In this document: positions 1-17,357 of the stretch, piece after piece
Layout of the letters: each line of letters begins with the position of its first letter
How positions within the stretch are numbered: position 1 is the stretch's first letter
From: Herpetosiphon aurantiacus DSM 785
Lineage (GTDB): Bacteria; Chloroflexota; Chloroflexia; Chloroflexales; Herpetosiphonaceae
Direction: 5' to 3'
DNA length: 64,000 nt
Assembly: GCA_000018565.1 (NCBI GenBank)
Contig: CP000875.1
Span: forward strand, 2,371,199 to 2,435,198
Program-made: the position numbers and the translations under genes
Notes under the pieces: generated by a model
Database searches by the model: none
What the model was told of the DNA's origin: nothing
What the model saw: the letters and a program-made list of their open reading frames with translations, nothing else

Positions 1-3000
1 GCCTCTGGGCTACGGCCTGAGCGTTGATGCCCACGATCCATGAGGTTGCGGGCTTCGCGCACTTGCTCGTCGGCAGCCCGATATAGCTCGCGCCAGCGCT
101 CACAGGCTGCATCGAACTGCATCGGAGCTTCAGCTAAGGTGCGCTCGACATACTGTGGGCCAAAGCTTTGCAAGGTCGCCAGATCAATCTGGCACTGATC
201 GATAATGCGCTGGCATGCCTCAATGCATTGAGCTTGTTGGGGCGGCGAAAGATGAATTTGGGCTTGAATCGCTGGCCAAAGTGGATACCCAACTTGGCTC
301 GTATCAACCAGATCCAACATTGAATGTTGCATGCCAAGGCCAGTTTTACTTAACCAGACTGCATGAATGTGTGCCCGCAGCAAATCTTCGTTGACCAAAT
401 CGATCTGTGGTGGGGCAACCACCCCAGCCACCATCGCTGGCTGACGATCAAAGAAGTATTGGTCGTGACCGCTGCCAACCGAGCAGTAGGTTTCGATCAG
501 GGCTGGTTGCCCTGAGCGTCCGGCGCGGCCTGAGCGTTGGGCATAATTGGCGGGGGTTGGGGGCACATTGCGCATATGCACCACATTCAAATCCCCAATA
601 TCAATGCCTAACTCCATCGTTGGCGAGCAAAACAAGACAGGCAAGGTTCCGGCACTAAAGCATTGCTCGCGGTCTTGGCGTTTTGCTTGAGCAACTTGCC
701 CGGTATGCTCGCGACTTTCCATCGCTTGCAGATTGTGGGCCATATGCTGATACAGATTTTGGAAAAAGCGATTGATTGGCCGTGGCGCTGGGCTAAAACC
801 CTTGAGCATCCGCGAACGAGCGAGATTGGGCGGCGGAGGTGTGCCATCGCCCGCTCGCCAGAGCAAGGCATCGCGGCTAATTTGCAGCTCGCGCGAGGCT
901 CCCGTGCCAACATCGGTCAAGATATTGCCAACTAAGGCTTCAACTAGCACTTCGAGCAGCGGCCAATATTCCTTTTCACTGAGGGTTTTGGTGAGGCTTG
1001 GCCAGGTTTGTTCCGCCCGTAAAAATCGACCTAAAGCTGAGCTAGCGCCTAAGCTCTGGCCGTCGCCCGAACCTCTACCGTCGGGAGTTGGCACAATAAA
1101 GCGTTTGGCTGAGGTGAATTCGCGTTCATTCATCTGCCACGATTCTTGGAGCAGGGCTTCGATGCTGGTGACCATGCGTTTTTGCTCCTGCTCTTGCAAA
1201 CATGGAGCATTGATCGCTAATCCATTACGCATATAATTAAGGATTGTCCGCAGAATTTGTTCCCGTTGGTGGGAGGGGGTTGCGGCAAGTAGCTCGTGTC
1301 TGGCCCAGAGGTCGGTTTGCTGGGCCAAATCGTCAAGCCCATCGTAATCAATCTGTAGCAAGCCAACTTGTTCGAGGTTGGGCTGGGTTACACGCCAACT
1401 TCGGCGTAAATCTTCGTAGATCCGATATTCAATCAAGCGAATCAAGGCATCGTCGATTTTTGCCCGCTTATTTGGCAGCGTAGTTTCTTCTTTGGCATAG
1501 GCTGTTTGAGGCAAATTAAGCGCCTCAAACACCGCTTGGGCAATCGTGGTGTAGTCGAGGGCGCGACCAGCAGGCTGTTGACGAACCGCGCTATAAATTG
1601 CTGCCCGCAGTTGGGCCACACTCACAAAATCATTGAAATGGCCCGCTTGAAGTGATGCATCTTGGCGGTTATCGGTAAAACTGAGCATCTTTTGGGCCGC
1701 AGGCTGCTCGGGCAAGGCCTGGCGTAGCTGCTGAACTGTGGCCAAGGCGAGGACCGTCGTGGCGGTGGAGCGGCCTTCGCTGCTGAGCCGCGCTAATTTA
1801 CTAAAATCGCTCTCACGTTTGGTATAGAGCGTGCCGCAGTTTAAACAACTCAGAAACGGGCTTGGAATAAACCATGCCGTTGGATCATGCTCGTTGCCAA
1901 GGCTGCCATTCGTCCGAACCGTAAGTCGTTGGGGGATAAACTGCTTAAAATCTTTTTTGACTGTTCCACGGCCATTGGTGCTTTTGTTAAACCAGCTATC
2001 TGGCAACATCTCAATCGCGTCGTCGCTCCAAACATCTTCGCCGAGCAAGGCATAGCCAGGCATGCTGGTGCTCTGCTCGTGGCTTTGGGCAAAGGGCTGA
2101 CGTGGCAGGAGCGTTTGCCTATGGGCATCGTAATTGCATTGATAATAGTGTTGACCACAGTTACGACAAAAGACCAGTGGAAATAACAGCTGTGGGTTAT
2201 CACGGTCGCCAATGGTATGTTGGCCTTCTGAGGTGAGTTTGCGCTCAGGCGGATGGGCTAGGGTTGCATAGATCGTGCCGCCCTGCGAGATGAACTGATG
2301 CAGTTTAAAGGTAAAGGCCTGCCGACCATTGAGCGCATCCTCAACGGTGCTACCAAGTTGCAACATTGCCTGAAGCTGGTGTAAACAGTGTGCCTGATCA
2401 ACTCCGGTCTCGTCAGCAAGCGCTTGTGCCCCTTGGGCAAGGGTTTTGGGTTTGGCGCGGCGCAGGGTATTGGTCTGATCGGTGGTGATGCCAAAGGTTT
2501 GTTCGATCCACGCGGCTAACGGATGATATTTGAAGGTATCCCATTCCATCGTGGCAGGAATTGGCTGGAGCAACGTTTCACGGAGTTGGCTCGCTGAGGG
2601 TTGGCCGAAAAATATCACCGATTTAATCAATTGCTCTTCGATAATCTGCGAAGCAGGAATGTTAACGCCAAAAATGGTGCTAGCAATTGCCGCAACTGCG
2701 CTTTTGCGATCATCAGCGACGGTGCTGCTGGCCATGGTTGCGCTGGTTCCGATACAAATCAATTCTGGATTGCCGCTGCGTTCGCGTAAACGACGCACCA
2801 ACAGCGCGACATCGCCACCTTGACGGCCTCGGTAGGTATGCAGCTCATCGAGCACCAGAAATTGTAAATTTGCCGTCTGCTGATCAACAAATGGCGCTTC
2901 GTCGGGCCGGGTGAGCATCAATTCGAGCATGACATAATTGGTGAGCAAAATATGCGGTGGGTTGGCTTGAATTGCTCGTTTGGTTGCTTCTTTATCTTGC

Positions 3001-3536
3001 CCGGTATAGCTTTCGACCCGAATTGGACAAGCGTCGCCTAGATGGCCTAAAAATTCCTTAATTGCTGCCATTTGCGAGTTGATCAAGGCATTCATTGGGT
3101 AGACGATAATTGCCCGAACTTTGCCTTGTTCTGGTTGATGTTTAAGCACATGATCGAAAATAGGCAGGATGTAGGTGAGACTTTTGCCCGAGCCAGTGCC
3201 AGTTGTTACGACATAATGGCGTTTTTCTTGCGCCAAGCCCAAAGCGGTGATTTGGTGGCTGTATAACTTGAGTGAACGCAGTTGTTGCTGGCGATCACGC
3301 TTTTGGAAAATATATTGACATAATGGATGGAGTTTCTGAGCGTTAACCAAATCCTCAACTGTGCCCCCTTGTTGGTAGGCCGGCGACAATTGAATTAGGG
3401 CATCGGGCCAGAGCGAACCACCCTGAATGTTGCTGGTTACAAACTGCTGAATCTCGGGATCAAGGATGCTAAGAAACCCTTGGGTATATTGACTGTATTG
3501 ATCAATAATCTGGTTGCGAAGCTGAAAAATATCCAT
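1..3536 (-). CDS. YprA/Druantia-like SF2 helicase, C-terminus outside window
   Basis: About 1178 residues are visible and the frame is still open at the left edge. The ATG at 3534-3536 follows GAGGG at good spacing. Walker A is TGTGSGKS (K118) and Walker B is DELH (D230-H233) inside DELHTYRGRQGGD. Two CxxC pairs, near residues 455 (CRNC) and 564 (CLNC), suggest a zinc ribbon. SFTDNRQDASLQAGHFNDF lies near 622, and CSPTMELGIDIGDLNVVH with QRSGRAGRSGQ (motifs V-VI) near 972-1010. This motif set is that of the large YprA/DUF1998-type helicases used in Druantia and related defence systems; it lacks the VGVD-type motif V of DISARM DrmA. It is the third gene of a minus-strand set behind the McrB-like and DUF2357-like genes, separated from them by a palindromic repeat. 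It probably translocates on or unwinds invading DNA. A DUF1998 tail is expected but lies outside the window. Confidence 0.88.
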   Translation of the reverse strand, partial: MDIFQLRNQIIDQYSQYTQGFLSILDPEIQQFVTSNIQGGSLWPDALIQLSPAYQQGGTVEDLVNAQKLHPLCQYIFQKRDRQQQLRSLKLYSHQITALGLAQEKRHYVVTTGTGSGKSLTYILPIFDHVLKHQPEQGKVRAIIVYPMNALINSQMAAIKEFLGHLGDACPIRVESYTGQDKEATKRAIQANPPHILLTNYVMLELMLTRPDEAPFVDQQTANLQFLVLDELHTYRGRQGGDVALLVRRLRERSGNPELICIGTSATMASSTVADDRKSAVAAIASTIFGVNIPASQIIEEQLIKSVIFFGQPSASQLRETLLQPIPATMEWDTFKYHPLAAWIEQTFGITTDQTNTLRRAKPKTLAQGAQALADETGVDQAHCLHQLQAMLQLGSTVEDALNGRQAFTFKLHQFISQGGTIYATLAHPPERKLTSEGQHTIGDRDNPQLLFPLVFCRNCGQHYYQCNYDAHRQTLLPRQPFAQSHEQSTSMPGYALLGEDVWSDDAIEMLPDSWFNKSTNGRGTVKKDFKQFIPQRLTVRTNGSLGNEHDPTAWFIPSPFLSCLNCGTLYTKRESDFSKLARLSSEGRSTATTVLALATVQQLRQALPEQPAAQKMLSFTDNRQDASLQAGHFNDFVSVAQLRAAIYSAVRQQPAGRALDYTTIAQAVFEALNLPQTAYAKEETTLPNKRAKIDDALIRLIEYRIYEDLRRSWRVTQPNLEQVGLLQIDYDGLDDLAQQTDLWARHELLAATPSHQREQILRTILNYMRNGLAINAPCLQEQEQKRMVTSIEALLQESWQMNEREFTSAKRFIVPTPDGRGSGDGQSLGASSALGRFLRAEQTWPSLTKTLSEKEYWPLLEVLVEALVGNILTDVGTGASRELQISRDALLWRAGDGTPPPPNLARSRMLKGFSPAPRPINRFFQNLYQHMAHNLQAMESREHTGQVAQAKRQDREQCFSAGTLPVLFCSPTMELGIDIGDLNVVHMRNVPPTPANYAQRSGRAGRSGQPALIETYCSVGSGHDQYFFDRQPAMVAGVVAPPQIDLVNEDLLRAHIHAVWLSKTGLGMQHSMLDLVDTSQVGYPLWPAIQAQIHLSPPQQAQCIEACQRIIDQCQIDLATLQSFGPQYVERTLAEAPMQFDAACERWRELYRAADEQVREARNLMDRGHQRSGRSPE

Positions 3537-3587
3537 ATCTTGCCCTCTAAATGCTAGTGCTGCCTTGTGGAAGTTTATATCGAAACC

Positions 3588-3694
3588 ATGCCCTCACCCC
3601 CGACCCCTCTCCCACTGCGGCGGGCGAGGGGAGCCTTTGGTTTAGTAGTTCCCCCTCGCTCGCCTGCGGGAGAGGGTGCTAGGGGGTGAGGGAA
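3588..3694. repeat. Palindromic GC-rich intergenic repeat, copy 1
   Basis: The segment opens with CATGCCCTCACCCCC and closes with GGGGGTGAGGGAAC, with internal arms of CCCTCTCCC and GGGAGAGGG type, so it can fold into a long GC-rich hairpin. It fills the gap between the helicase start and the stop of the DUF2357-type gene and may attenuate transcription between them. The family recurs at six further places in the first 26 kb. Confidence 0.85.
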
Positions 3695-3696
3695 CA

Positions 3697-6057
3697 CTAT
3701 CCTTGCCACGCAAGTAACAACACATCAAGCAACCCACGCCCAAGCGGACTCATTTGGCAAACGAGGTCTTGCATCGCACCATAGGCGGTCCGCGAAACAG
3801 GTTCCACGTGGGCGGCATTGTTGCGAGCATCTTTAACCCGATTGAGCAACTGAATAAATTTAATGAAATTGAAGCTATAGTCCATTTCGTTAAATGTTAC
3901 TTCAGGCTGCCAATGGCGCTTCACATGCTTCGTAATCAAGTCCCAATTGGCTTGATCGGCCCATGGTTTGTATTCTAAAAAGGTCAGTTTGCCCATAGTC
4001 TGGTTATGTGGTCTGGCCAAATCGCCTAGCAGCCTGACCCCTGTGAAAACTCGTTCTTTGAGCATACGCTCCATCACGCTGCCAATGTGAATCGCCGGAG
4101 CCGAAAAATCGGGCGCATTGATGCTATCAAGCTGATCGGTCAGGAAGATCGCGAGCGCCAACGACTCTTTGGCATAGGTATCAAGCCGATCAAAGGTTTG
4201 GCGCATCCCTAGATCACGCACTCGATTGAAGTAGTATTCCCATTGGATGTTGTTGATGCTGGCAAACTGACGAGTTAGCGATTCGACCTCTTTCACGATG
4301 CGAGCCAGGGTTTGCTCATCGAGTTCATCGGTGGTGGCGAGAATATGTTTGAGTTCGTTGAGCAGATCGGCGGCGGTGCGCAAGGGGCGAATTGGCTTGC
4401 GGCGATTGGGCCAGCCGATAATCTGACAAACATGGGGATCTTCACAACATTGCCGCCCACGATGCACTAGATCAATGCGCCACTCACCAATATGGGGTTT
4501 GGGGCAGAGCACAACTTCATCAAGCTCGTTGCCAGCAATGCCATACCTTGCCAGCAACGGCAAGCGATCGGTGGTGCTGAGGGTATCAAGAAACATCCCA
4601 TGACAGGCGATCTGGCGCGGTTGGCTCAGCTGCTTGTGGGCTGTTTCCAGCAGCTCGATCAGGGTTTGCTGGACGTTGGTTAATTGATTGCTGCTTTGCG
4701 GCTGAAGTTGGTGTAAATGCACCGCTTGGGTGGGCATCACATTGTGGGCTAAGCCTGGCGCTGGAGTAATCCTATAGTTTGCGGTTGATGGGCCGCTGTT
4801 GGCAGCTTGCTCGCTGTGATCATTCGTATTGGGCCGCAAAAAAGCAAACAGCAGCGTGCCATGCTCCTCGCCCAACAGCGCCAGATCGGCAATCATGCGC
4901 TTGATTGGCTCAGCCGGAACTTTATGCGGCTGATCAAGATCAAATGGTCGGTAGTATTTGGCATCCCAGATGATGCCTGGCTCGCGCCAAAATTGTTGCC
5001 CCTCATGGACTATTTTGAGCATGGGGGGATGGATACGGGTCAGATAAAAGTCGGGCCGCACGTTCGGCACTTGGTCGCGAGCTGCACTGGTGGTCCAGTT
5101 GGCGCTTGGATTAGGCACAGCTTGATCGTGGCGCAATTCGTAGCGCACCTCGTCGTCGCCCGAACCCCAGCGAAATTGGAGTCGCACGCTGGCTTTAACT
5201 TTTGGGTAAACAATCAGCTCAAGCTTTTGCTGTTCAGTTAATAAATCGGCTAGCTCGTAGAAAATCCAGAGCTGATAGAGATAATTGTCGCGATCGGGGT
5301 TGCTGCCCAATAGATCGTGATCGGGGCTGGTTGGGAGCCGCCGCAGTAACTGGAGATTGTGCAGCCGCTGATACCATTCGATCAGATCTTGGTAGGCGCT
5401 GTTGCTGCCAGGAATTAAATTATTGCTGACGTGTAGCACCAAATTTGGGCCATCGGAATATTCGCTATGCAGCCCAGCGATAATCTGGGTGGCTTGGCTG
5501 CGCAAGCTGGCAAATTGTGGAAATGCCAACTCACGCTCGCAGCGTTCTACAATCTCGGTCAGTGGGTGACGCAAGGCCGCCGCCCCAACCGCGAGATTTT
5601 CATCCCAAAGCAATGCTTCGCCCAATTGATGATATTCCAGCAGGGCCACAACCGTCAGCAAATTCTCGGGAATTGCAAAATCGCGGCGTTGTTGGCGAGT
5701 GACCATGGTTAAGGGCGGCTCGCCTGGCCGTTCATCCCAGGTTGCTGCTAGCGTGCGATCCCAGTCGATCTGGCCGCGAGCTGGTGGTTCTTCAACCACC
5801 AAACTGCGCGGCGCGGCAAAACTGAGGCGACGCACGATGCGCGGCAGAATATGCTCAAACAGCTCATCGCGTAGATGAAACATGGTGGCTAAATCGCGAT
5901 AGCGGGTCAGCGTTGGGTCATCTTCAATCGCAAAGCCTGCGAATGCCGCAACAAACTGCTGAAAATTGGCCTGATTGTGGCGTAGCAATAGCTCGATCAG
6001 GCGGGCTTGTATGGTGGCGAAGGTACTTTGCTCAATTGGCGTTGGGCTATACACCAT
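3697..6057 (-). CDS. DUF2357-type PD-(D/E)XK protein with C-terminal HEPN-like motif
   Basis: The protein has 786 residues from ATG 6057, which shares one base with the stop of the upstream McrB-like gene (TGATG); a GTG at 6060 is an alternative start. The central part carries RPDFYL (P335-D336) and, about 29 residues later, IIWDAKYY (D365-x-K367), the layout of a PD-(D/E)XK nuclease as in McrC and DUF2357 partners of McrB-type ATPases. Near the C-terminus, RVKDARNNAAHVEP holds R745-N-x3-H750, the RNxxxH signature of HEPN ribonucleases. The first 250 residues match nothing I recognise. Tight coupling to the AAA+ gene implies a McrBC-like complex in which this subunit cuts. DNA cleavage fits the family; RNA cleavage by the tail is inference from one short motif. 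Confidence 0.75.
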   Translation of the reverse strand: MVYSPTPIEQSTFATIQARLIELLLRHNQANFQQFVAAFAGFAIEDDPTLTRYRDLATMFHLRDELFEHILPRIVRRLSFAAPRSLVVEEPPARGQIDWDRTLAATWDERPGEPPLTMVTRQQRRDFAIPENLLTVVALLEYHQLGEALLWDENLAVGAAALRHPLTEIVERCERELAFPQFASLRSQATQIIAGLHSEYSDGPNLVLHVSNNLIPGSNSAYQDLIEWYQRLHNLQLLRRLPTSPDHDLLGSNPDRDNYLYQLWIFYELADLLTEQQKLELIVYPKVKASVRLQFRWGSGDDEVRYELRHDQAVPNPSANWTTSAARDQVPNVRPDFYLTRIHPPMLKIVHEGQQFWREPGIIWDAKYYRPFDLDQPHKVPAEPIKRMIADLALLGEEHGTLLFAFLRPNTNDHSEQAANSGPSTANYRITPAPGLAHNVMPTQAVHLHQLQPQSSNQLTNVQQTLIELLETAHKQLSQPRQIACHGMFLDTLSTTDRLPLLARYGIAGNELDEVVLCPKPHIGEWRIDLVHRGRQCCEDPHVCQIIGWPNRRKPIRPLRTAADLLNELKHILATTDELDEQTLARIVKEVESLTRQFASINNIQWEYYFNRVRDLGMRQTFDRLDTYAKESLALAIFLTDQLDSINAPDFSAPAIHIGSVMERMLKERVFTGVRLLGDLARPHNQTMGKLTFLEYKPWADQANWDLITKHVKRHWQPEVTFNEMDYSFNFIKFIQLLNRVKDARNNAAHVEPVSRTAYGAMQDLVCQMSPLGRGLLDVLLLAWQG

Positions 6058-8873
6058 CACAGGCCTCGTTCGCTGCTGAACGTGCGCAAGCGTTGGGCAA
6101 ATTGACTGGTTTGATCGAGCAGCAATTCTGTGCCGAGATCAAAAATTTGGCTAATGTGCGTCATCGTTAGCTCATCAATGTTGGCTATGTTGATCGAGCC
6201 ACTAGCATGCTTGGGGCTAGCTGTTTGGAGTTGGGTTAAATGGCTGGCTTGGCGCGGCAACGGCAGGCTCTTGATGATCGTTTTGAGCTGCTCACTAAAT
6301 TCTTTGGGATTGTGAGCATAGGCCAGATAGGCCAATAAGGCCCGCTGTTCATCGCGATTGAGCACTTGCAGTTGGTCGGCCAAGGTATCGGCAAGGGCGT
6401 AATCGAGCGCATCGTGCCAACTCAAGCCAATGGCATGGCCAGCAAAGGTTGCGGCATACACTGCCTCGGCCTGGGCAGTGCCAAGCTGGCGATAGACCCG
6501 AATTGCGCTGAAGATGCGCCAGAAACTATCCAATACATCTTTGGCATCCTGATTTTCGACCTCTAGCCGATAGTTGACCCGTGAGCCGTCACCATCGCGA
6601 TTGATCTCGCGATTAACATTGAGCACACCACGCCACGTGGCTCGTCCGGCTGCATCGTTGCTGGCGATGGTATCGAGTTTTTGGTCGCTCAGGCGTAAAA
6701 GGGCACGATAGGCCGCGATGCCTTGCTCTTCATCGGCATCGTCGCTGCTTGGTGGCAACAGATCAATAAAGACAAAACGCCGTTTCATGGCTTCGCTCAT
6801 TTGGTTGAGAAAGTGACGATCAAACGAGTTGAGCGTGCCGATGATGCGGAAATCGCGTGGCAAAGGCACTTGCACTACAACGCCATCGTCGGTTGGGATG
6901 CTGAGTGGGGCGTTGCGTTGGCCGCCAAGGGTCGTGAGCAAGCTGCCAAAAGCGGCATCAATATGCGCTCGGGTAAATTCGTCGATGACCAGCCAGCGAC
7001 CACGGTAGCGTTGCTGTTTAACCATCACCTCAGTGCGTTGCAGGGTTTCGGGGTTGGGCACGTTTTCGCCGTCGTAGCCCGCATAGTTCGAAAGCACTGC
7101 GCTGGTGAGGCAGCCATGGCGCACTCCATACACCAAGGTTTTGCCGCCAGCACTGCGCTGGAGTTGAGGCACGATGCCGCCAATAATATCTCGGCTGCTC
7201 CAGGTTTCGGTGGCAGTTTCAATTTGAACGGCATAGCCATGGCGGGTATGGCGCTCTTCAATTGGTGGCTCGGTCGGTGGTAAGGCAGGCGAGGTTGGCA
7301 TGCGCAAGCTGATACTGGCATCAGTATCGCGCCAGAAGATCTCGGGCAGCCGTTGGGCTAAGTGGGTTTTGCCAGTGCCTGGCGGGCCACTCAAAATCAC
7401 ATGCTGGCCTGCGATCAGGGCGCGGTAGATTCGCAGTAGGGTGACGCGGTTGACCAACAGTTCGCGTTGCAGTTCGGCGATGCGCTCGTTGAGCACGGCG
7501 GTGGTCAGTTGCGGCAGCGGTTGATCTTGCAAGGCGCTATCCATGGTGCTGCGTTGGCTGCGTTGCACGCGCTCGATATGCTCAAGAAAGCTATTGATCG
7601 CATGGGCAGTGGGGGTGGTTGGGTTGGCTATGGGTTGTAAGGCAGCGGGGCGACTGCGCAGCCAACTATGCTCGCCCTGCTCAATCAAGCCTGCCTCGCG
7701 ATACCAATCACGTAACAAGGCCGGGCCAGGCCATGCTTCGGCGGGGTGAGCTACTCCATCGAAGGGCATCGCCATAATTGGTAGCCAATAATCGTCGTTA
7801 GCTTCGCTATCGGGCAGCACGAGGGTTAGCGCACTATAGCGCAGCATGGTTTCCTCATGCAGATCGTTGAGGTGCGGCCAGCGCCGATAGCGGTCGTCGG
7901 GCAGTTGCTCAACTAAACGTAACAGTTGCAATACATCAAGCAGATCATCGGCATTCGGGCGGGCCGTGAGTTGTACTAAGGGTGGGTTGGCCTGCCCGAG
8001 CACATCAACGATTTGCTCGGCACTGTAACTGTTGGTGGAGAGCATGGCTACCAGCTGAATATAGGGGCGTAGTTTTGGCCCCAATGGCAGGGGCACAGGG
8101 AAATCAGGCCGCTGAGTTTCATCATGTTGAATGGCATAGAAGCTGAAGTTTGCCCCATACTGTGGGGTCAAGGCGCGGCGAATCTCCCACAACTGGCGAT
8201 CAATATCGTTGCTGGTGGTTTGTTTATGATGGGCATATTGGCGAGCATAATTAGCTTTATGATCACGCGAAACGATCGATTCAAAGCTATCGGGGTGTAC
8301 CAGATGCAGCAGCATTTCGCGGGCGGCATAGGCGGTTTTGATTGGCAGCGAGAATAAAATCTGCTTAAATTCCCATGGATCAGCCAATGCTGTTGTACGA
8401 GCTGCCTGCGATAGCCCTTTCCAGTGTTGCATAAATTCGATGATAAAGCTTAGTTGGTAAAATTTGTAGGTCTGATAGGCTGTGCCGGTGTTGGCGATGC
8501 CTTGATCAAGCGCTCCGTCAAGCTCATGGGGAATGCTGACTGGCTCGGGTGACCATTTGAGGATGGTATTAATCTGGTCGCGCTTGGCGCGTCCGGTGAT
8601 TTTGCGCGAAATCAGATAGTAGACAAATTGGAGTTCGGCAGCAAGCTGGATGATGGTTGGTTGCGCTTCATGCAGTTGGCGTTGGAATTTGATCATGAAG
8701 CTATCAGCTGATTCGTCGGGTTGGCCGACGAAGCGTTGGTAGAGATCATCAAGGTTGGCCGCACTCCAAACAGCAACGCCAGGCGTAAATAGCGAATCGT
8801 CAGCCCGCAATGCTCGATCAACAAAGCTCTGAGCGGCGGCGTAGAACAGCGGACGATCATCGACTCGGGCCAT
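6057..8873 (-). CDS. McrB-like AAA+ ATPase/GTPase
   Basis: The protein has 938 residues and starts at ATG 8871-8873 behind GGAG. Residues 1-470 form a domain I cannot assign; the DUF3578 DNA-binding domain of E. coli McrB is not evident. The AAA+ core has Walker A GPPGTGKT (K502), Walker B WLVIDEF (D631-E632) followed by TRAHIDAAFGSLLTTLGG, and a sensor segment IIGTLNSFDRHFLNQMSEAMKRRF, matching the McrB/MoxR group. An insertion between Walker A and B contains the EERHTRHGYAVQIETATETWSSRDIIGG region. It should form a ring motor that translocates nucleic acid and activates the DUF2357-type nuclease encoded immediately downstream. Its promoter is divergent from the SNF2 helicase gene, which suggests shared control of both arms of the defence locus. 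Confidence 0.85.
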   Translation of the reverse strand: MARVDDRPLFYAAAQSFVDRALRADDSLFTPGVAVWSAANLDDLYQRFVGQPDESADSFMIKFQRQLHEAQPTIIQLAAELQFVYYLISRKITGRAKRDQINTILKWSPEPVSIPHELDGALDQGIANTGTAYQTYKFYQLSFIIEFMQHWKGLSQAARTTALADPWEFKQILFSLPIKTAYAAREMLLHLVHPDSFESIVSRDHKANYARQYAHHKQTTSNDIDRQLWEIRRALTPQYGANFSFYAIQHDETQRPDFPVPLPLGPKLRPYIQLVAMLSTNSYSAEQIVDVLGQANPPLVQLTARPNADDLLDVLQLLRLVEQLPDDRYRRWPHLNDLHEETMLRYSALTLVLPDSEANDDYWLPIMAMPFDGVAHPAEAWPGPALLRDWYREAGLIEQGEHSWLRSRPAALQPIANPTTPTAHAINSFLEHIERVQRSQRSTMDSALQDQPLPQLTTAVLNERIAELQRELLVNRVTLLRIYRALIAGQHVILSGPPGTGKTHLAQRLPEIFWRDTDASISLRMPTSPALPPTEPPIEERHTRHGYAVQIETATETWSSRDIIGGIVPQLQRSAGGKTLVYGVRHGCLTSAVLSNYAGYDGENVPNPETLQRTEVMVKQQRYRGRWLVIDEFTRAHIDAAFGSLLTTLGGQRNAPLSIPTDDGVVVQVPLPRDFRIIGTLNSFDRHFLNQMSEAMKRRFVFIDLLPPSSDDADEEQGIAAYRALLRLSDQKLDTIASNDAAGRATWRGVLNVNREINRDGDGSRVNYRLEVENQDAKDVLDSFWRIFSAIRVYRQLGTAQAEAVYAATFAGHAIGLSWHDALDYALADTLADQLQVLNRDEQRALLAYLAYAHNPKEFSEQLKTIIKSLPLPRQASHLTQLQTASPKHASGSINIANIDELTMTHISQIFDLGTELLLDQTSQFAQRLRTFSSERGL

Positions 8874-8931
8874 GATGTCAACTCCTTTGGTGCTCGCGAG
8901 GTTGTAGGTTGCCTCTAGGTTGCTGGGCCTC

Positions 8932-8960
8932 AGTATACCATTAGCATGCGGTTCGGTGAA
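8932..8960 (-). promoter_or_regulatory. Sigma-70-like promoter for the McrB-like gene
   Basis: On the minus strand the sequence reads TTCACC (8960-8955), a 17-base spacer, then TATACT (8937-8932), about 60 bases before the ATG at 8873. The -10 lies within an inverted repeat, CAGTATACCA at 8931-8940 and TGGTATACTG at 8968-8977, whose right arm also puts a TATACT on the plus strand. One regulator could therefore bind both arms. The call is based on consensus similarity only. Confidence 0.55.
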
Positions 8961-8984
8961 ATTTTTTTGGTATACTGGGCTGGG

Positions 8985-9411
8985 ATGCCCTCACCCCCTA
9001 GCTCCTGCCTTACAAGGGTAGGTTTTTAACAATGATTGGGTGGGATGTGGAGTCGATGGTCATGCCCTCACCCCCTCGCCCCCTCTCCCGCAGGCGAGCG
9101 AGGGGGAAGCACCGAACCAAACGCCCCTCGCCCACACGCGAGGTAAGGGGGGACCACCGAACTAAACGCCCCTCGCCCGCCGCAGTGGGAGAGGGGTTGG
9201 GGGTGAGGGAACGCTTACAAATGATTGGGTGGGATGTGGAGTCGATGGTCATGCCCTCACCCCCTCGCCCCCTCTCCCGCAGGCGAGCGAGGGGGAAGCA
9301 CCGAACCAAACGCCCCTCGCCCACACGCGAGGTAAGGGGGAAGCATTCGATCATGAAGCTTGGAATGCCCCTCGCCCGCCGCAGTGGGAGAGGGGTTGGG
9401 GGTGAGGGGTC
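8985..9411. repeat. Palindromic repeat cluster 2 with an exact 121-bp direct duplication
   Basis: This stretch holds several CCCTCACCCCC ... GGGGGTGAGGG units and no gene. Bases 9031-9151 and 9220-9340 are identical over 121 bp (offset 189) and include unique-looking flank (AATGATTGGGTGGGATGTGG) as well as repeat core, so a unit has been duplicated in tandem. The cluster separates the divergent promoter region from the SNF2 helicase start. If transcription begins near 8980, it becomes a structured leader of about 450 nt. Confidence 0.9.
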
Positions 9412-9433
9412 TTAAAACCTTGAGGTGAATTGA

Positions 9434-12340
9434 ATGGCGCAGTTTCGGGTTGGCTCGATTGTTCGCTGTCGGAATCGTGAGTGGGTCGTGCAACCATCAA
9501 CCCATCCTGATATTTTGCAGCTGCGACCACTTGGTGGGATTGATGGCGAAAGCTGTGGGATTTATCTGCCAATCGAGGGCGATACGGTTACAACCGCCCA
9601 GTTTCCGCCACCTGATCCGGCCATGGCTGGCGATTTTGTGGCTGGGCAGTTGTTGCGGAACGCCGCCCGCCTGAGTTTGCGCAATGGGGCTGGGCCATTT
9701 CGGTCGTTGGGCCGCTTGGGTGCACGCCCACGCCCCTACCAGCTTGTGCCGTTGTTGATGGCGCTGCGCCTCGACCCAGTTCGTTTGCTGATTGCCGATG
9801 ATGTTGGGGTTGGTAAAACGGTTGAGGCGGCGTTGATTGTGCGCGAATTGCTCGATCGTGGCGAAATTAAGCGCTTTACGGTGCTGTGCCCGCCGCATCT
9901 CTGCGACCAGTGGAGCCGTGAGTTGGAGCAGAAATTTGGTATCGAGGCAACCGTCGTGCGTTCGAGCACTGCCGCCGCGCTTGATCGCACACTGCCCAAC
10001 GCCGATATTAGTGTCTTCGAGTATTATCCTTTTACGGTTGCTAGCATTGATTACATTAAACATGATCGGCATCGGGCGAACTTTTTGCGAGCTTGCCCCG
10101 AATTGGTGATTGTTGATGAGGTGCATACGGCGGCGCGGCCAAGCGGCCCTGGCTCCGGTCAACAACAACGCTATGATCTGATTCGGGCGGTAGCCGACGA
10201 TCAGGAACGGCATTTGTTGTTGTTGTCGGCCACGCCTCACAGTGGAATTGAGGATGCCTTTGTGTCGTTGTTGGGTTTGCTGCGCCCCGAATTTGAAACC
10301 TATTCGATGACCAACCTTAGCTCCAAGCAGCGCGATTTGCTGGCTCAACATTTTGTGCAGCGCCGCCGTGGCGATGTTGTGCGTTGGTTGGATGAAGAAA
10401 CGCCGTTTCCAAAGCGTGAACATATGTTGCGTGATGCCACTGGCAATCGTGATATTACCTACCGCCTCGCTCAATCATCGGCCTATCGCAGTTTGTTTAA
10501 TGAGGTGTTTGAGTTTGCCCGCGAGTTGGTGCACGAAAGCTTGCGCGAGGCTAATGCACCACGGGTTGCGGCCCGCACGCGGGTGCGCTATTGGGCGGCG
10601 CTCGCCTTGTTGCGCTGTGTGATGAGCAGCCCCGCCGCTGCTGAAAAAGCCTTGATGACTCGCGCTCGCAAAGATCCAACCACCCAAGCTGATGATCTGA
10701 GTTTAACGTTTGATGATGAGCTATTTAGTAGTGCGATTCACGACCGCAGCACACCCGCCGCTGATGATGATGTTGAGCCAACCCATGTGATCGAGGAAGG
10801 CAGCACTGCCAGCGAGGCCGCCCGCTTGCAAAAATTTGCTGAAAAGGCGCGACAATTGCGCGGCGCAAACGACCCCAAGTTGCAAAGTATTGTGCCGATC
10901 GTGGCGCGTTTGCTGAAGGATGATTTTCAGCCAATTATTTATTGTCGCTATATTGCAACCGCTAAGTATGTGGCCGAGGAGTTGACTCGTGCCCTGAAGC
11001 CTGGCAACGATACGCGCATTTTGGCGGTAACTGGCGACCATAGCGAGGAAGAACGCGAAAGTTTAATTGCTGAATTGAGCGCCAGCCCCCGCCGCCTGTT
11101 GGTGGCAACCGATTGTTTGAGCGAGGGCATCAATTTGCAAGAGGCTTTCAATGCGGTGATTCATTACGATTTGCCGTGGAATCCCAATCGTTTGGAGCAA
11201 CGGGAGGGGCGGGTTGATCGCTATGGTCAGCCAGCGCCAGTTGTGCGTATGGCTTTGGTGCGCGGCGAGGATAACCCCATCGACGAGGCGGTGATGCGGG
11301 TGTTGTTGCGCAAAGCAGTCACCATCCATCGCACGCTTGGCATTAGCGTGCCCTTGCCAGTCAGTAATGAAACCGTCGTCGATGCACTGATTGCAACCTT
11401 GTTTAAGCCGCCAGCAACTCAGCTGACCATGTTTGAAGCAATCGATCCGGCGACCTTTGCGGCGGCTGAACAAACCTTGGCCGAGGTCGAGTTGCAGTGG
11501 GCGCAGGCCGAACATCAAGCCGAGCAAAGCCGCACTCGTTTTGCTCAACATCGGATTCAGCCCCAAGAGGTGGCGCGTGAGCTTGAGGAAAGTGATGCGG
11601 TGCTGGGCGATGCTGATACGGTGCGCTCATTTGTGCGTGCTAGTTGTGAACGAATTGGTGCGCCATTGGTGGCGCTGGGTGCGCACGCTCCCGACCATTG
11701 GCGCGTGCCGATTATTCAATTGCCGCTGCCTGTGCGCGAACGGGTCGAGCCGTTGTTGCGTAATAAGGCGACTGAGTTAATCATCACGTTCACGGGGATT
11801 GCTGCTGAGGGCGTGCTGTTGGTTGGGCGTAATCATCCGCTGACGATGGCCTTGGCTGATTATGCCTTGGAAACTGCCTTGACTCCCGAGGATGGTTTGC
11901 CCGTTCCGGCGGCGCGATCAGGGGTGTTGCGTACAAAAGCGGTCGAACGGCGCACCTTTTTGGCCTTGTTGCGGGTGCGGATGCTGATTGCGACCAAACG
12001 CAATGAGCCGCTGTTGGCCGAGGAGTTGGTGGTGGCGGGGTTTGTGCGCGAGCCAGGCGGTTTTCGCAGCCTTGAGCCAGCAGCGGCCCTTGATCTGTTA
12101 ACCAATGCCTTGCCTGATGCTAATATTGCCCACGCTGATCGCGAACACCAATTGCATTCGGCGCTTGATCTGTTGCCGCAGCTCGCCGCCGATCTCACCA
12201 GTTTGGCCCATACTCGTGCCGAACGCTTGGCTGAATCGCACTCACGGGTGCGCACGGCTACGCGCATGGCAGGCAAAGTTAGCGTCGAGCCACATTTGCC
12301 GCCCGATGTGTTGGGTTTGTATGTGTTGTTGCCAGTGTAA
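9434..12340 (+). CDS. drmD: DISARM DrmD-like SNF2 helicase
   Basis: The protein has 968 residues and starts at ATG 9434 behind GAGGTGA. The N-terminus (VGSIVRCRNREWVV ... LRPLGGIDGE ... GIYLPIE) and the segment ARPRPYQLVPLLMALRLDP match my memory of DISARM DrmD. SF2/SNF2 motifs follow: Walker A ADDVGVGKT (K128), DEVH (D228-H231), LLLSATPHSG near 260, SEGINLQEA near 560, and the arginine-finger motif QREGRVDRYGQ (R590-R596). Residues 650-968 form an extended C-terminal domain. It is expected to be a DNA translocase of a restriction-like system and pairs with the methylase gene downstream. In class 1 DISARM this gene sits beside the methylase, as here, but drmA, drmB and drmC are replaced by the divergent McrB-like, nuclease and YprA-like genes. 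Confidence 0.88.
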   Translation: MAQFRVGSIVRCRNREWVVQPSTHPDILQLRPLGGIDGESCGIYLPIEGDTVTTAQFPPPDPAMAGDFVAGQLLRNAARLSLRNGAGPFRSLGRLGARPRPYQLVPLLMALRLDPVRLLIADDVGVGKTVEAALIVRELLDRGEIKRFTVLCPPHLCDQWSRELEQKFGIEATVVRSSTAAALDRTLPNADISVFEYYPFTVASIDYIKHDRHRANFLRACPELVIVDEVHTAARPSGPGSGQQQRYDLIRAVADDQERHLLLLSATPHSGIEDAFVSLLGLLRPEFETYSMTNLSSKQRDLLAQHFVQRRRGDVVRWLDEETPFPKREHMLRDATGNRDITYRLAQSSAYRSLFNEVFEFARELVHESLREANAPRVAARTRVRYWAALALLRCVMSSPAAAEKALMTRARKDPTTQADDLSLTFDDELFSSAIHDRSTPAADDDVEPTHVIEEGSTASEAARLQKFAEKARQLRGANDPKLQSIVPIVARLLKDDFQPIIYCRYIATAKYVAEELTRALKPGNDTRILAVTGDHSEEERESLIAELSASPRRLLVATDCLSEGINLQEAFNAVIHYDLPWNPNRLEQREGRVDRYGQPAPVVRMALVRGEDNPIDEAVMRVLLRKAVTIHRTLGISVPLPVSNETVVDALIATLFKPPATQLTMFEAIDPATFAAAEQTLAEVELQWAQAEHQAEQSRTRFAQHRIQPQEVARELEESDAVLGDADTVRSFVRASCERIGAPLVALGAHAPDHWRVPIIQLPLPVRERVEPLLRNKATELIITFTGIAAEGVLLVGRNHPLTMALADYALETALTPEDGLPVPAARSGVLRTKAVERRTFLALLRVRMLIATKRNEPLLAEELVVAGFVREPGGFRSLEPAAALDLLTNALPDANIAHADREHQLHSALDLLPQLAADLTSLAHTRAERLAESHSRVRTATRMAGKVSVEPHLPPDVLGLYVLLPV

Positions 12341-12346
12341 GGGATC

Positions 12347-12600
12347 ATGCCCTCACCCCCTGACCCCCTCTCCCGCCCAGCAGGCGAGGGGGAAACGAGA
12401 AACCAAAAGCCCCTCGCCCGCCGCAGTGGGAGAGGGGTTGGGGTGAGGGAACGCCCCTCTCCCGCCGAGCGAGCGAGGGAGAAGCATGCGAGCATGAAGG
12501 GTGGAACGCCCCCTCGCCCGCCGCAGTGGGAGCGGGGTTGGGGGTGAGGGCATGCCCCTCGCCCGCCGCAGTGGGAGCGGGGGTTGGGGGTGAGGGAACG
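12347..12600. repeat. Palindromic repeat cluster 3
   Basis: Three or four units of the same family (CATGCCCTCACCCCC start, GGGGGTGAGGGAACG ends) fill the 293-base gap between the SNF2 helicase and methylase genes. The first unit begins seven bases after the helicase stop. Any co-transcript of the two genes would carry this structure between cistrons. A GGGGG Shine-Dalgarno outside the repeat serves the methylase. Confidence 0.88.
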
Positions 12601-12633
12601 CTCATAGCCATATTCTAAGTTTGGGGGAATTTG

Positions 12634-15600
12634 ATGAAATATACGGCGATTATCACCGAGGGCGGGTTGTTGCCTGCCGATATGCTTCAAGCGATTGCTG
12701 AGGGTGAGCAGGGCAGCCTCGCTGGTCAGCGCCCAGCCGATTTTGGCTTGCCTGCCAATCGCCGTATGAGCGATGATATTGCCGCTGCTTGGGGCCAGGT
12801 GCGGGCGCAATGGCAGATTTTTCAGGCGGCAATCGAGCGCCGCCCCCAAGATTCGCACACAACCTTGACCCGCCGTTATTGGGTCGAGCCGTTTTTGCAG
12901 TTGATCGGCTATGAGCCAACCAGCACCAAAAGCGCTCGCCGCGTTGATAATCGCACCTATGCTATCAGTCATTCCGCCGATGAGCACGATGATTCGCCGC
13001 CTATTCATATCGAGGGGATTAAGACTGATATCGACCGCCGCCCCGAAAGTGGTCGCCCACGGATTTCGCCCCACGCTTTGATGCAGGAATATCTCAATAG
13101 CACTGAACATACTTGGGGGATTGTGACCAACGGCAGGCGTTTGCGTTTGCTGCGTGATTCGTCGCAAACTACCCGCCCAAGTTTTGTCGAGTTCGATTTG
13201 GAGTCGCTGGTGACTGGCCAGTTGTTCAATGAGTTTGCGCTGCTTTATCGGATTTTGCATCGCACGCGCTTGCCAATTACCAGCGCCGATACCGCCCAAT
13301 CGTTGCTCGAACAGTATCATCAGCAGGCGCGTGAGGCTGGCGGTCGGGTGCGCGAGGGCTTGCGCGAAGGGGTTGAACGGGCGCTCAAGTTGCTGGGCCA
13401 AGGCTTGTTGCGCCATCCACGCAACAGCGATTTGCGCCAGCGCTTTGCCACCAATCAATTAACTCCGCTGGAATATTATCGCCAGTTGCTCAAGTTGGTC
13501 TATCGCTTGCTGTTTTTGATGGTCGCCGAGGATCGCGGGTTGATCGAGGCCGAAACTGCTAGCGATAAATTATCGGAGTTGGCGCAGCGTGGCACGCCCA
13601 GCGAACGGCTGAAATTGTATTATGAGCATTATAGCGTTGGCCGTTTGCGGCGTTTGGCCGAGGTGCGCGGCGCTGGTCGCGGCCCTTACGATGATATTTG
13701 GATGGCGCTGCAACAAACGTTTCGGATTTTTGAGGGTACTGATCTTAAAGCCAATCGCTTGGGCATCGCAGCGCTCGATGGCGATTTGTTTGGCGAAGGC
13801 GCGATTGGGGCGCTCGAAACTGCTCATTTGCGTAATGCCGATGTTTTAGCGGCGCTGCGGGCGCTCTCGATCTATGCCGATCCGCAGTCGCGGGCTTTGC
13901 GGCGGGTCAATTATGCGGCGCTCGATGTCGAGGAGCTGGGTAGTGTCTATGAGTCGTTGCTCGATTATCGTCCGGTGGTCGCTGGCACAAGCTTCGATTT
14001 GGTCGCTGGCACCGAGCGCAAAACCACAGGCTCGTATTACACTCGCCCCGAATTGGTGCAGGAGCTGATCAAGAGTGCGCTTGAGCCAATTATTGCTGAA
14101 CGCTTGCGCGATAAAAACCCGGAACAGGCACTGCTCTCAATTACGGTCTGCGACCCCGCTTGTGGTTCGGGCCACTTTTTGCTGGCCGCTGCTCGCCGCA
14201 TTGGGCGCGAACTGGCACGGGTGCGCTCCGGCGAGGATCAGCCAACGCCCGATCAGTTTCGCCATGCGGTGCGCGATGTGATTACTCACTGTATTTATGG
14301 AGTCGATTTCAATCCGTTGGCGGTCGATTTGTGTAAATTGGCGCTGTGGATCGAGGGCCATTGCGCGGGCATGCCGCTTTCGTTTATTGATTATCATATT
14401 CGTTGGGGCAATAGTTTGGTTGGCGCAACTGAAGAACTGGTTAATCAAGGGATTCCCGATGATGCGTTTAAACCGGTGACTGGCGACGATAAAACGATCG
14501 CGAGCAATTTGCGCAAACGCAACAAGCGCGAACGTGAGGATATTGCCAGCGGCCAAATTACCATGAATCTTGCGCCCAGCCAGCTTGATCATGCGACGCT
14601 CGGTCGGGCCACACGCCAACTTGAGGCCTTGCCCGATGATAGTGTGGCGGCAGTGCGGGCCAAAGCGGCTCGCTACGCCCGCATGCGCGAGCAAGAACGC
14701 CCAAACTGGACGCGCTACAATCTTTGGACGGCGGCTTTTTTCCAGCCGATTACCAAGGATACGCTGCCGCTGATTCCAACTAGCGCTACCTTGCACGCCT
14801 TTGATACGGCCCGCCAAAGCGTCAGCGCTGGCCTGCTGGCTTGGGTCGATGGCCTTGCCGACCAGCCTGAAATGCGCTTTTTTCATTGGGAGTTGGAGTT
14901 TCCGCATATTTGTGGCGAAGGTAGCCCGCGTGGTTTTGATGTGATTTTGGGCAACCCGCCGTGGGAGCGGATTAAGCTGCAAGAGCAAGAGCATTGGGTC
15001 GATGTAGCCGAGATTCGCGAGGCGGCCAATAAAGCGGCGCGTGAGAAGTTGCTCAAGGCGTGGGCCAGCAGCAGCGAACCAAGCAAGCAACAGCGTTATG
15101 CCAAATTTGAGCATGCCAAATATATTGCCGAGGCTGCTAGCCGCTTTATTCGGGTTTCGCAGCGCTACCCACTGACGGCGGTTGGCGATGTTAATACCTA
15201 TGCCTTGTTTTCCGAGCTTGATCGCGATTTGATCAATCGTAAAGGCCGCGCAGGCATTATTGTGCCAACTGGCATCGCCACCGATGATACAACTAAAGCC
15301 TTTTTTGGCGATTTAATCAAGAAACAATCATTAGAAAGGTTGATTGGTTTTGAAAATGAAGCATTTATTTTTCCTGAAGTACATAACGCTTTCAAATTCT
15401 GTGCACTTACAATGGTAGGAAATGATATTTCTAGCGAAACCCCTGACTTCATTTTCTTATGTAGGTATTTTAGTGATATAGAACAGGATGCTAGACATTT
15501 TAATATGACTAGCGATGAATTCGCCTTAATTAATCCCAATACTTTGAATTGCCCTATATTTCGTACTAAAACTGATGCACAGTTAACGAAAAAAATTTAT

Positions 15601-16635
15601 CGGATTGCCCCAATCTTAGATAACCAAAAAACGAAACGAAATCCTTGGAATATATCGTTTGGTACAATGTTTCATATGGCAAATGATAGTGGTTTATTTA
15701 AAAACGAATCCTCACGCGATAGAATGCCTTTATATGAAGCAAAAATGATATGGCAATTTGATCATCGATTTGCATCACTCATAGGCAAAGAAAATGCAGG
15801 CAACAGATTATCCAGAAAATATGAAGGCTGGTATGGTGCAGATTATGGCAACCCAGAAGATCTTCCAATTCCTACATACTGGATTGATAGAGAGAGTATA
15901 GAGGATCGTATTCCAAGTAAGCATCAAAATAAGTGGTTATTGGTATTTCGTGATATTACTAGCAGTGTTGTTGAACGAACGGCGATTTTTAGCCTGATTC
16001 CACGAGTGGCGGTAGGCCATACCGCACCTTTGATTTTCCTAACAGATATTAATTCTAGTTTGTTTTCCTGCTTCTTAAGCATAGTTAATAGCCTTTGCTT
16101 TGACTACATAGTACGACAGAAGATTGGTGGCACACATTTAACCTTTGGCTATGTCAAACAACTGCCCGTGCTGCCACCCGAACGCTTTGATGCAGCCCAG
16201 CTAGCCTTCATCGTGCCACGGGTTTTAGAGCTGGTCTATACCGCGTGGGATCTGCAACCGTTCGCCGCAGATGTTTGGGCCGAACTTGATGAAACGGGGC
16301 GGCAGGCACTTTTAGCCCAAAACGCCGAGTGCAACCGAGATGCGCCGCCGGAGTGGTTCAGCCCACGTGATGGTTTTGCTTTGCCACCCTTCCGCTGGAG
16401 CGACGAACGGCGGGCGGTGTTGCGAGCCGAGCTTGATGCGCGGATTGCGCGATTGTATGGGCTAAGCCGCGACGAACTGCGCTACATCCTCGATCCGGCT
16501 GAAGTCTATGGCCCCGACTTCCCGGGCGAAACCTTCCGCGTGTTGAAAGAAAAAGAGCTGAAACAGTATGGTGAGTATCGCACGCGGCGTTTAGTGCTCG
16601 AAGCGTGGGATGGGGAGGATGCCCTCACCCCCTAG
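12634..16635 (+). CDS. N6-adenine DNA methyltransferase, DISARM/BREX-like (DrmMI-type)
   Basis: The protein has 1333 residues from ATG 12634 (GGGG seven bases upstream; a TTG at 12631 is in frame). A long N-terminal domain precedes the Rossmann methylase core, with SAM motif DPACGSG (D507-G513) and catalytic motif IV NPPW (N774-W777), an Eco57I/PglX-type gamma-class adenine methylase. Residues about 892-1170 (15310-16145), just after the catalytic core where target recognition domains sit, are much more AT-rich than both flanks. By hand count, GC is 21 of 60 in bases 15361-15420 against 31 of 60 in 14701-14760. It most likely marks host DNA as self for the helicase and nuclease genes around it. 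The last codons (ALTP) and the TAG stop come from the palindromic repeat starting at 16619, so the original C-terminus may have been altered. Confidence 0.88.
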   Translation: MKYTAIITEGGLLPADMLQAIAEGEQGSLAGQRPADFGLPANRRMSDDIAAAWGQVRAQWQIFQAAIERRPQDSHTTLTRRYWVEPFLQLIGYEPTSTKSARRVDNRTYAISHSADEHDDSPPIHIEGIKTDIDRRPESGRPRISPHALMQEYLNSTEHTWGIVTNGRRLRLLRDSSQTTRPSFVEFDLESLVTGQLFNEFALLYRILHRTRLPITSADTAQSLLEQYHQQAREAGGRVREGLREGVERALKLLGQGLLRHPRNSDLRQRFATNQLTPLEYYRQLLKLVYRLLFLMVAEDRGLIEAETASDKLSELAQRGTPSERLKLYYEHYSVGRLRRLAEVRGAGRGPYDDIWMALQQTFRIFEGTDLKANRLGIAALDGDLFGEGAIGALETAHLRNADVLAALRALSIYADPQSRALRRVNYAALDVEELGSVYESLLDYRPVVAGTSFDLVAGTERKTTGSYYTRPELVQELIKSALEPIIAERLRDKNPEQALLSITVCDPACGSGHFLLAAARRIGRELARVRSGEDQPTPDQFRHAVRDVITHCIYGVDFNPLAVDLCKLALWIEGHCAGMPLSFIDYHIRWGNSLVGATEELVNQGIPDDAFKPVTGDDKTIASNLRKRNKREREDIASGQITMNLAPSQLDHATLGRATRQLEALPDDSVAAVRAKAARYARMREQERPNWTRYNLWTAAFFQPITKDTLPLIPTSATLHAFDTARQSVSAGLLAWVDGLADQPEMRFFHWELEFPHICGEGSPRGFDVILGNPPWERIKLQEQEHWVDVAEIREAANKAAREKLLKAWASSSEPSKQQRYAKFEHAKYIAEAASRFIRVSQRYPLTAVGDVNTYALFSELDRDLINRKGRAGIIVPTGIATDDTTKAFFGDLIKKQSLERLIGFENEAFIFPEVHNAFKFCALTMVGNDISSETPDFIFLCRYFSDIEQDARHFNMTSDEFALINPNTLNCPIFRTKTDAQLTKKIYRIAPILDNQKTKRNPWNISFGTMFHMANDSGLFKNESSRDRMPLYEAKMIWQFDHRFASLIGKENAGNRLSRKYEGWYGADYGNPEDLPIPTYWIDRESIEDRIPSKHQNKWLLVFRDITSSVVERTAIFSLIPRVAVGHTAPLIFLTDINSSLFSCFLSIVNSLCFDYIVRQKIGGTHLTFGYVKQLPVLPPERFDAAQLAFIVPRVLELVYTAWDLQPFAADVWAELDETGRQALLAQNAECNRDAPPEWFSPRDGFALPPFRWSDERRAVLRAELDARIARLYGLSRDELRYILDPAEVYGPDFPGETFRVLKEKELKQYGEYRTRRLVLEAWDGEDALTP

Positions 16636-16778
16636 TCCCCTCTCCCGCCGAGCGAGCGAGGGGGAAGGGAAGCCCTCACCCCCTGACCCCCTCTCCCGCT
16701 GCGGCGAGCGAGGGGGAACCACTAATCGAAAAGCCCCTCGCCCATCGCAATGGGAGAGGGGTTGGGGGTGAGGGAACA
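16619..16778. repeat. Palindromic repeat cluster 4
   Basis: Two units of the CCCTCACCCCC/GGGGGTGAGGG family. The first 17 bases overlap the end of the methylase gene and supply its stop codon (CCCCCTAG). The 3' edge lies 22 bases before the DUF559 gene. With cluster 5 it brackets that gene. Confidence 0.88.
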
Positions 16779-16800
16779 CTCAATCAAAGGAATACGTTGT

Positions 16801-17166
16801 ATGGATCGGTTGCAAATTCCTTATCACCTAGCTCAAAAAATTCAAGCGATTGCCCAGACATTTCGTAAAGTGGCAACGCCGAGCGAAGCGCTTTTGTGGG
16901 AGGCAATCCGTGGGCGAAAACTTGATGGGCGAAAGTTTCGGCGGCAACATCCAATTGGCAGTTTTATTGTCGATTTTATCTGTATTGAGGAAATGCTGAT
17001 TGTCGAGGTTGATGGAGCGATTCATTCCGACCAATACGAGGCCGATGCTGAACGGCAAGCCTTGTTAGAATGTTTGGGCTATCGGGTGTTGCGGTTGACT
17101 GCAGATAGCGTTGAACACGATTTACCCAATGCATTAGCGGCAATTCAGGGAATGTGGTGTATTTGA
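16801..17166 (+). CDS. DUF559 (Vsr-like) small endonuclease-domain protein
   Basis: The protein has 121 residues from ATG 16801 with AAAGGA about ten bases upstream; an earlier in-frame ATG at 16750 lies inside the palindromic repeat and is unlikely. The pattern TPSEALLWEAIRGRKLDGRKFRRQHPIGSFIVDF followed by LIVEVDGAIH is that of DUF559 proteins, a compact PD-(D/E)XK/Vsr-like fold; the D of VDF and the E of VEVDG are candidate catalytic residues. DUF559 proteins occur in many copies in Chloroflexota and cyanobacteria, and I know of no settled function. Here the gene sits between two clusters of the palindromic repeat, at the edge of the defence island. It could be a nicking or repair enzyme, a defence accessory, or the enzyme that moves the repeats. 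Confidence 0.85.
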   Translation: MDRLQIPYHLAQKIQAIAQTFRKVATPSEALLWEAIRGRKLDGRKFRRQHPIGSFIVDFICIEEMLIVEVDGAIHSDQYEADAERQALLECLGYRVLRLTADSVEHDLPNALAAIQGMWCI

Positions 17167-17168
17167 GC

Positions 17169-17273
17169 ATGCCCTCACCCCCTAACCCCCTCTCCCGCCG
17201 AGCGAGCGAGGGGGAACCACGAAACGAACGCCCCTCGCCCGCCGCAGTGGGAGAGGGGTTGGGGTGAGGGAAC
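17169..17273. repeat. Palindromic repeat cluster 5
   Basis: A full-length unit running from CATGCCCTCACCCCC to GGGGTGAGGGAAC, starting four bases after the DUF559 stop codon. The remaining 84 bases before the next gene contain its Shine-Dalgarno (AAGGAGG) and no other feature I can support. Confidence 0.88.
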
Positions 17274-17357
17274 GCCACTTGGTAGGAAATGTCAAGTTTT
17301 TTGGGCTGCGCTCAGCTAGAGTAACTGCATCTGAGATTCGTTCAAGGAGGCAGCTCT

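Follow-up and report, generated by a model that had tools for sequence, protein, structure and literature searches.

A clade of ARMADA Type I loci in Chloroflexota that may have moved DNA cleavage from its helicase to an attached McrB-McrC pair

Analyzing a 64,000-bp stretch of Herpetosiphon aurantiacus DSM 785 (CP000875.1, positions 2,371,199 to 2,435,198; hereafter the window, from which positions are counted unless a locus is named), we found at its left end an island of five defense genes. We read it, with a probability of roughly 0.6, as an ARMADA Type I system whose helicase has handed the DNA-cutting step to an attached McrB-McrC pair that probably also supplies an RNase. Three proteins define ARMADA: a YprA helicase from a particular clade, accompanied by a helicase resembling BrxHII and a methylase resembling PglX (Bell et al. 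2025, PMC12458937). Its Type II was tested against phages in Escherichia coli, where it needs the helicase ATPase and methylase motifs, and a C-terminal Vsr nuclease is described as predicted active in Types I and II (PMC12458937). ARMADA was thus described in 2025 with a nuclease built into its helicase; in the branch studied here that site is gone and an McrC protein with a HEPN-like domain is attached. Such a natural Vsr-less, McrBC-linked branch makes the question of what kills in ARMADA addressable through one gene.

The five open reading frames (ORFs) lie at the places and on the strands given in an earlier note on this DNA, which had read the island as a mixture of DISARM-like, Druantia-like, and McrBC-like parts and had suspected ARMADA. 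The YprA-family, ArmC-like helicase is partial in the window, with 1178 of its 1695 amino acids (aa) encoded at 3..3536 on the minus strand and another 1554 bp lying to the left of the window (L005:11648-16735). In a tree of 63 helicases, it falls within a 48-row ARMADA Type I clade supported by a Shimodaira-Hasegawa-like approximate likelihood ratio (SH-aLRT) of 100, separate from ARMADA II, Druantia III, and MrfA. MrfA-like helicases of ~800 aa form their own branch (SH-aLRT 100), and the window protein is not placed with housekeeping MrfA/YprA. The earlier note had named such a tree as the test of its ARMADA guess, which stands. Reference helicases were recognized from the gene orders that the paper describes and are not the paper's own sequences: plasmids of E. 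coli and Streptomyces for Type II, and plasmids or loci of Deinococcus (D. radiodurans MP1), Rhodococcus, Mesorhizobium, and Dolichospermum for Type I. DrmA rows were dropped after the first tree, where they formed a 5.1-long branch inside ARMADA. Among PADLOC families DruE scores best (323 bits over parts), yet the tree puts the helicase outside Druantia III; DrmA models give it just 57 bits. No DrmA, DrmB, or DrmC gene lies within the island, as had been stated before, nor does a DruH-like gene. Among the island ORFs we found neither a UvrD gene (the GajB-RelE helicase of Type II, a type that the tree also separates from this helicase) nor TALON genes (NERD nuclease, TPR-CSD, TBP). By its sequences, the system is an ARMADA Type I rather than a DISARM, a Druantia, or a housekeeping MrfA.

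Both ARMADA partners are present in the island. The SNF2 helicase (9434..12340, plus strand; RapA type, ArmA-like) is BrxHII/DrmD/DpdE-like, in line with the earlier DrmD-like label; PADLOC ranks its DpdE model first (644 bits, full length) ahead of DrmD (309), and the NCBIfam DrmD score of 343 is under the cut-off of 610. The ArmB-like methylase (12631..16635, plus strand), a PglX/DrmMI-like N6-adenine DNA methyltransferase, is of DISARM type as proposed, with 247 bits to DrmMI and the motifs DPACGSG and NPPW. DISARM Class 1 shares the DrmD and DrmMI homologues, whereas here its DrmA, DrmB, and DrmC are missing and the helicase belongs to the ARMADA clade.

The evidence for a change of nuclease begins with the helicase C-terminus. 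An MZB/DUF1998 zinc domain (PF09369, residues 1464-1555, 30.1 bits vs a cut-off of 24.2) lies outside the window, as does a degenerate Vsr-like end (~1585-1695) that is still recognizable in the alignment. Canonical ARMADA helicases end in a Vsr-type nuclease with the motif PDFxY...DGxxH, which in the window clade has turned into RPHLxY...CxExGE or similar. Every window-clade row whose C-terminus is intact has lost DGxxH, which most other ARMADA I helicases retain. The nuclease is a usual feature of ARMADA Type I, not a defining one. A helicase that lacks its own cutting site suggests that the attached McrBC part now does the cutting. The reverse case is seen in Ktedonobacter SOSP1-85, where the helicase keeps Vsr (L189) and McrC has lost PD-(D/E)xK (L160). 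From these motifs, we read the pattern as one DNA nuclease kept per system, either helicase Vsr or McrC PD-(D/E)xK. This loss, together with the HEPN-like domain described below, had been overlooked in the earlier reading.

The pair itself is encoded on the minus strand with a 4-bp overlap. McrB (6057..8873, 938 aa) is an NxxD GTPase with the Walker motif GPPGTGKT, the signature GTLNSFDR, and a long N-terminal part; in a comparison with the PDB, McrB was the only AAA+ family clearly matched, in keeping with the earlier call. The region N-terminal of its GTPase differs greatly in length among relatives and is a putative specificity region. McrC (3697..6060, 787 aa) comprises an McrC fold (residues 8-480), a Cys/His-rich module (486-545), and a HEPN-like part (556-787). 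The window sequence has no significant match in Pfam, PADLOC, NCBIfam, or a phmmer search of the PDB, and Pfam DUF2357 is detected in just 1 of 33 relatives, most of them 22-49% identical to the window protein. A single-sequence AlphaFold2 model was discarded, its predicted local distance difference test (pLDDT) score being 35, in favor of one built from the 33 relatives (pLDDT 84), in which residues 8-480 match the McrC fold (Foldseek E 5e-8). The DUF2357-type nuclease of the earlier note is thus recovered by structure, though Pfam is silent on the window copy. The PD-(D/E)xK motif (D337 ... D366-x-K368, at 4957..5052, minus strand) is intact in 29 of the 33 relatives and lost in four. With GTPase motifs on one side and the McrC fold plus PD-(D/E)xK on the other, the two proteins qualify as an McrBC pair predicted to cleave DNA. 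In our genome collection, the McrB-McrC family is confined to Chloroflexota, bar one metagenome-assembled genome labelled Gracilibacteria, and McrC relatives were not found among the plasmids or viral contigs searched.

The C-terminal domain of McrC (residues 556-787, at 3700..4395, minus strand) is probably HEPN-like and a predicted RNase, judging from the modeled structure and motif conservation. Best structural matches to residues 556-784 are RnlA (Z 10.9 and 10.7) and LsoA (Z 10.4), the HEPN anti-T4 RNases of RNase LS, with which it shares RxxxxH; unrelated helical proteins reach Z near 5-6 in the same comparison. RnlA and LsoA are stand-alone toxins held by RnlB, whereas no RnlB gene adjoins McrC, and comparison of sequence profiles does not connect the two groups. 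All 33 relatives carry the motif R746-N747-x3-H751 (RNxxxH) unchanged, including those without PD-(D/E)xK, and E664 is invariant as well. Set against an RNase are an hhalign comparison with four RnlA sequences that was not significant (probability 0.3%) and the Z of near 11, which is not decisive for a helical fold, as such folds reach middling values by chance; Pfam HEPN matches are also weak (best E 0.013). In that hhalign alignment, R746/H751 and E664 landed on the RnlA RxxxxH and E258. A HEPN-like domain that acts not as an RNase but as a dimerization or RNA-binding platform placing McrC would suit this missing profile link and moderate fold match, and some HEPN domains are non-catalytic (PMC3710099). 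We consider it improbable, given that E664 and the RxxxxH motif by which catalytic HEPN domains are recognized are invariant even where PD-(D/E)xK has gone.

Most Chloroflexota ARMADA operons have the standard order YprA-BrxHII-methylase. At least eight loci besides those of the window and its sister species continue on the same strand of the same contig, after zero to several extra genes, into McrB and McrC. Three of these, G142, Herpetosiphonaceae KatS3mg057, and Chloroflexi 54-19, have no gene of ≥150 aa between methylase and McrB, and at least one extra ORF stands there in Chloroploca Khr17, two ZM16-3 loci, Oscillochloris KT5, and Ktedonobacter SOSP1-85. On a Candidatus Chlorohelix plasmid (L234:4420-9976, NZ_CP128401), the ARMADA operon leads in the same order into a different type of McrBC, made up of an McrB with an EVE domain and a canonical DUF2357 McrC of 566 aa that ends without the HEPN part.

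These loci have to be weighed against the view that two independent systems lie side by side, an ARMADA whose helicase blocks without cutting and a hitchhiking Type IV McrBC that destroys modified phage DNA. Several observations lean that way and away from a transferred cutting step. McrC and ARMADA co-occur across genomes of the phylum (p 1.6e-5), but this vanishes within the order (10/15 vs 7/14, p 0.46), and we have therefore set the phylum-wide figure aside as evidence of linkage. The majority of Chloroflexota ARMADA loci go without the pair and, since the same pair is also seen by itself or next to other systems, it may be autonomous. DGxxH is also missing outside the window clade (L087, L090, L092-L094, L106, L122, L182), and the tree shows essentially a single Vsr loss, with sporadic others outside it, so that a single clade and a single reverse case carry most of the weight of the McrBC link. 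Even so, we regard two independent systems as unlikely. In McrC lineages as distant as 28% identity, McrB recurs immediately or a short way 3' of the ARMADA methylase, ARMADA and McrBC are present or absent together in the genus, and nuclease losses are reciprocal between the window clade and Ktedonobacter. Moreover, a Type IV enzyme that worked alone and cut methylated DNA would have to spare the host mark set by the resident methylase.

The McrB-McrC family is also found 3' of GajB-like/DrmA/DrmB genes, PglZ-BrxL (BREX), GajA-GajB (Gabija), and a PLD-SNF2 helicase, and the GajA-GajB set that carries it itself sits 3' of an ARMADA methylase. Partner types require at least four changes on the McrC tree, so the ARMADA link is not exclusive, and with neighbors ranging over DISARM, BREX, Gabija, and PLD-SNF2 the pair looks like a portable effector. 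Two such arrangements are worth recording: in Candidatus Viridilinea halotolerans (L139:324-10590), the tail of a BREX operon reads PglZ-BrxL-McrB-McrC(HEPN), and in three Ktedonobacteria loci (L161, L164, L170; first ~12.2 kb) the order is GajB-like UvrD, DrmA, DrmB, McrB, McrC, where DrmA and DrmB are named from their resemblance to L163, and in L170 GajB, too, is identified solely through similarity. The earlier idea of a Chloroflexota variant with an McrBC pair holds in that the pair is attached in many Chloroflexota, and fails in that it is neither exclusive to ARMADA nor present at most ARMADA loci; loci with the two halves apart, which the earlier note had listed as a refuting outcome, do exist. 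A wider statement, which we put forward tentatively and at somewhat less than even odds, is that a portable McrB plus McrC-HEPN effector cuts DNA and RNA and docks 3' of ARMADA, DISARM, BREX, Gabija, and PLD-SNF2 operons across Chloroflexota, with Vsr or PD-(D/E)xK lost where it sits on ARMADA. Finding the pair next to DISARM, BREX, and Gabija genes suggests that large systems can exchange sensors and effectors.

Gene content, helicase clade, gain or loss as a block, McrC fold, RNxxxH conservation, and loss of the Vsr site in the clade are direct observations; from them, we infer the activities, their order, and the joint working of the two halves as follows. The PglX-like methylase would mark host DNA, and the BrxHII-like and YprA helicases would engage phage DNA that is unmarked or replicating and translocate along it. 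Their action, or direct recognition by the variable McrB N-terminus, would trigger the McrB GTPase ring, and McrB would then activate McrC, whose PD-(D/E)xK domain would cut phage DNA. The HEPN-like domain would cut RNA, a second line of defense against phage mRNA or one that acts by stopping the cell. If true, the McrC-HEPN fusion would join DNA and RNA attack in a single polypeptide.

ARMADA and McrBC genes are gained or lost as one block. The island is a 19,044-bp block missing from the same-genus genome G078, whose flanks align up to genome positions 2369430 and 2388475 of the 6.79-Mb genome holding the window, with ~105 bp between them at the empty site. It spans from ~1.77 kb left of the window start to window position 17276, and this 19.0-kb block holds the five defense genes, one DUF559 gene, and repeats. 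Decay into a non-functional island might be suspected from the lost Vsr site, the repeats at every gene junction, and the stops or frameshifts that break some relative loci (L154, L156, L238). We find this very hard to credit: two species have all five ORFs intact, in identical rearranged order in the closest one (G274), and the ratio of nonsynonymous to synonymous substitution rates against this sister species is 0.05-0.14 for each of the five genes, which are thus all under purifying selection, so none is decaying.

Linkage of McrBC to such cassettes is known in outline. Bell et al. already reported McrBC adjoining a DISARM-like YprA cassette (PMC11090510; PMC12458937), and in 2024 they deferred details of the DISARM-linked branch (PMC11090510). 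That arrangement shares with ours the NxxD McrB and an McrC beside a YprA-containing cassette, whereas here McrC has a C-terminal Cys/His module and HEPN-like domain and the pair is common to BREX, Gabija, DISARM, and PLD-SNF2 loci. ARMADA Type I (PMC12458937) has the same YprA branch, BrxHII-like helicase, and PglX-like methylase, with the usual order in most relatives; the window differs in that order and strands are rearranged, the Vsr motif is lost, and McrB-McrC is attached. CoCoNuT (PMC11090510) likewise combines McrBC-type proteins with a HEPN RNase, and its McrC nuclease is sometimes inactive. However, its McrB has NxD and long coiled coils (CnuB) and its HEPN sits on a separate CnuE, whereas here HEPN is fused to McrC, and assignment to CoCoNuT failed on the NxxD motif. 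A literature search returned no account of McrC fused to HEPN, of an McrBC-linked ARMADA that has lost Vsr, or of BREX or Gabija carrying the same pair, although publications outside the search could contain them. On that search, the fusion of McrC to a HEPN-like domain, the proposed nuclease swap, and the sharing of the pair among several defense systems appear new.

The divergent layout is a local rearrangement in this genus; elsewhere the five genes lie on one strand, so the facing strands described in the earlier note are not a general trait of the system. A palindromic repeat with the core CCCCTCGCCCGCCGCAGTGGGAGAGGGG occurs in ~308 genome copies (≤3 mismatches) against 0 for a reversed-pattern control. 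Copies in both orientations lie at the McrC/YprA (3587..3692), McrB/SNF2 (in tandem, 9054..9409), and SNF2/methylase (12343..12595) junctions and just past the methylase, where they overlap its stop codon (16611..16774). The last copy (17165-17271) and the right island end, with its breakpoint at window position 17276 by empty-site comparison, are at 17165..17276. Repeats of both orientations at gene junctions could explain the divergent layout in a simple way. The shared control region once proposed at 8874-9433 is there as an intergenic region and consists largely of copies of this repeat. Among the listed copies, those in the first 2.4 Mb are mostly on the plus strand and those around 3.0-3.7 Mb mostly on the minus strand, as though the replichore set their direction.

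The genome's only DUF559 (Vsr-like) gene, at 16750-17166, has the repeat on both flanks, and its first codons are repeat-derived. As a substitute for the lost Vsr nuclease it was ruled out: in the sister species 2.6 kb of different sequence with an RCC1-repeat gene stands in its place, which puts DUF559 outside the system. Beside the methylase end of that species lies a serine-recombinase-like fragment (L248:6748-7002, STKGKLIFHIFGALAEFERTLI), possibly, from its sequence, the relic of an element that carried the island. RCC1-repeat proteins, probably secreted, adjoin McrBC or ARMADA loci in three genomes (L144, L145, L248), which may simply mirror their abundance in Chloroflexota. The H. aurantiacus genome also holds a separate Druantia III-like locus (L006:969-10527; G000:C1:1943968-1953526) with a DruH-like gene of 1054 aa (no PADLOC match), a 335-aa gene, and a DruE of 1784 aa (1012 bits). 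ARMADA and Druantia III thus share this genome, as is likewise reported for E. coli ARMADA II.

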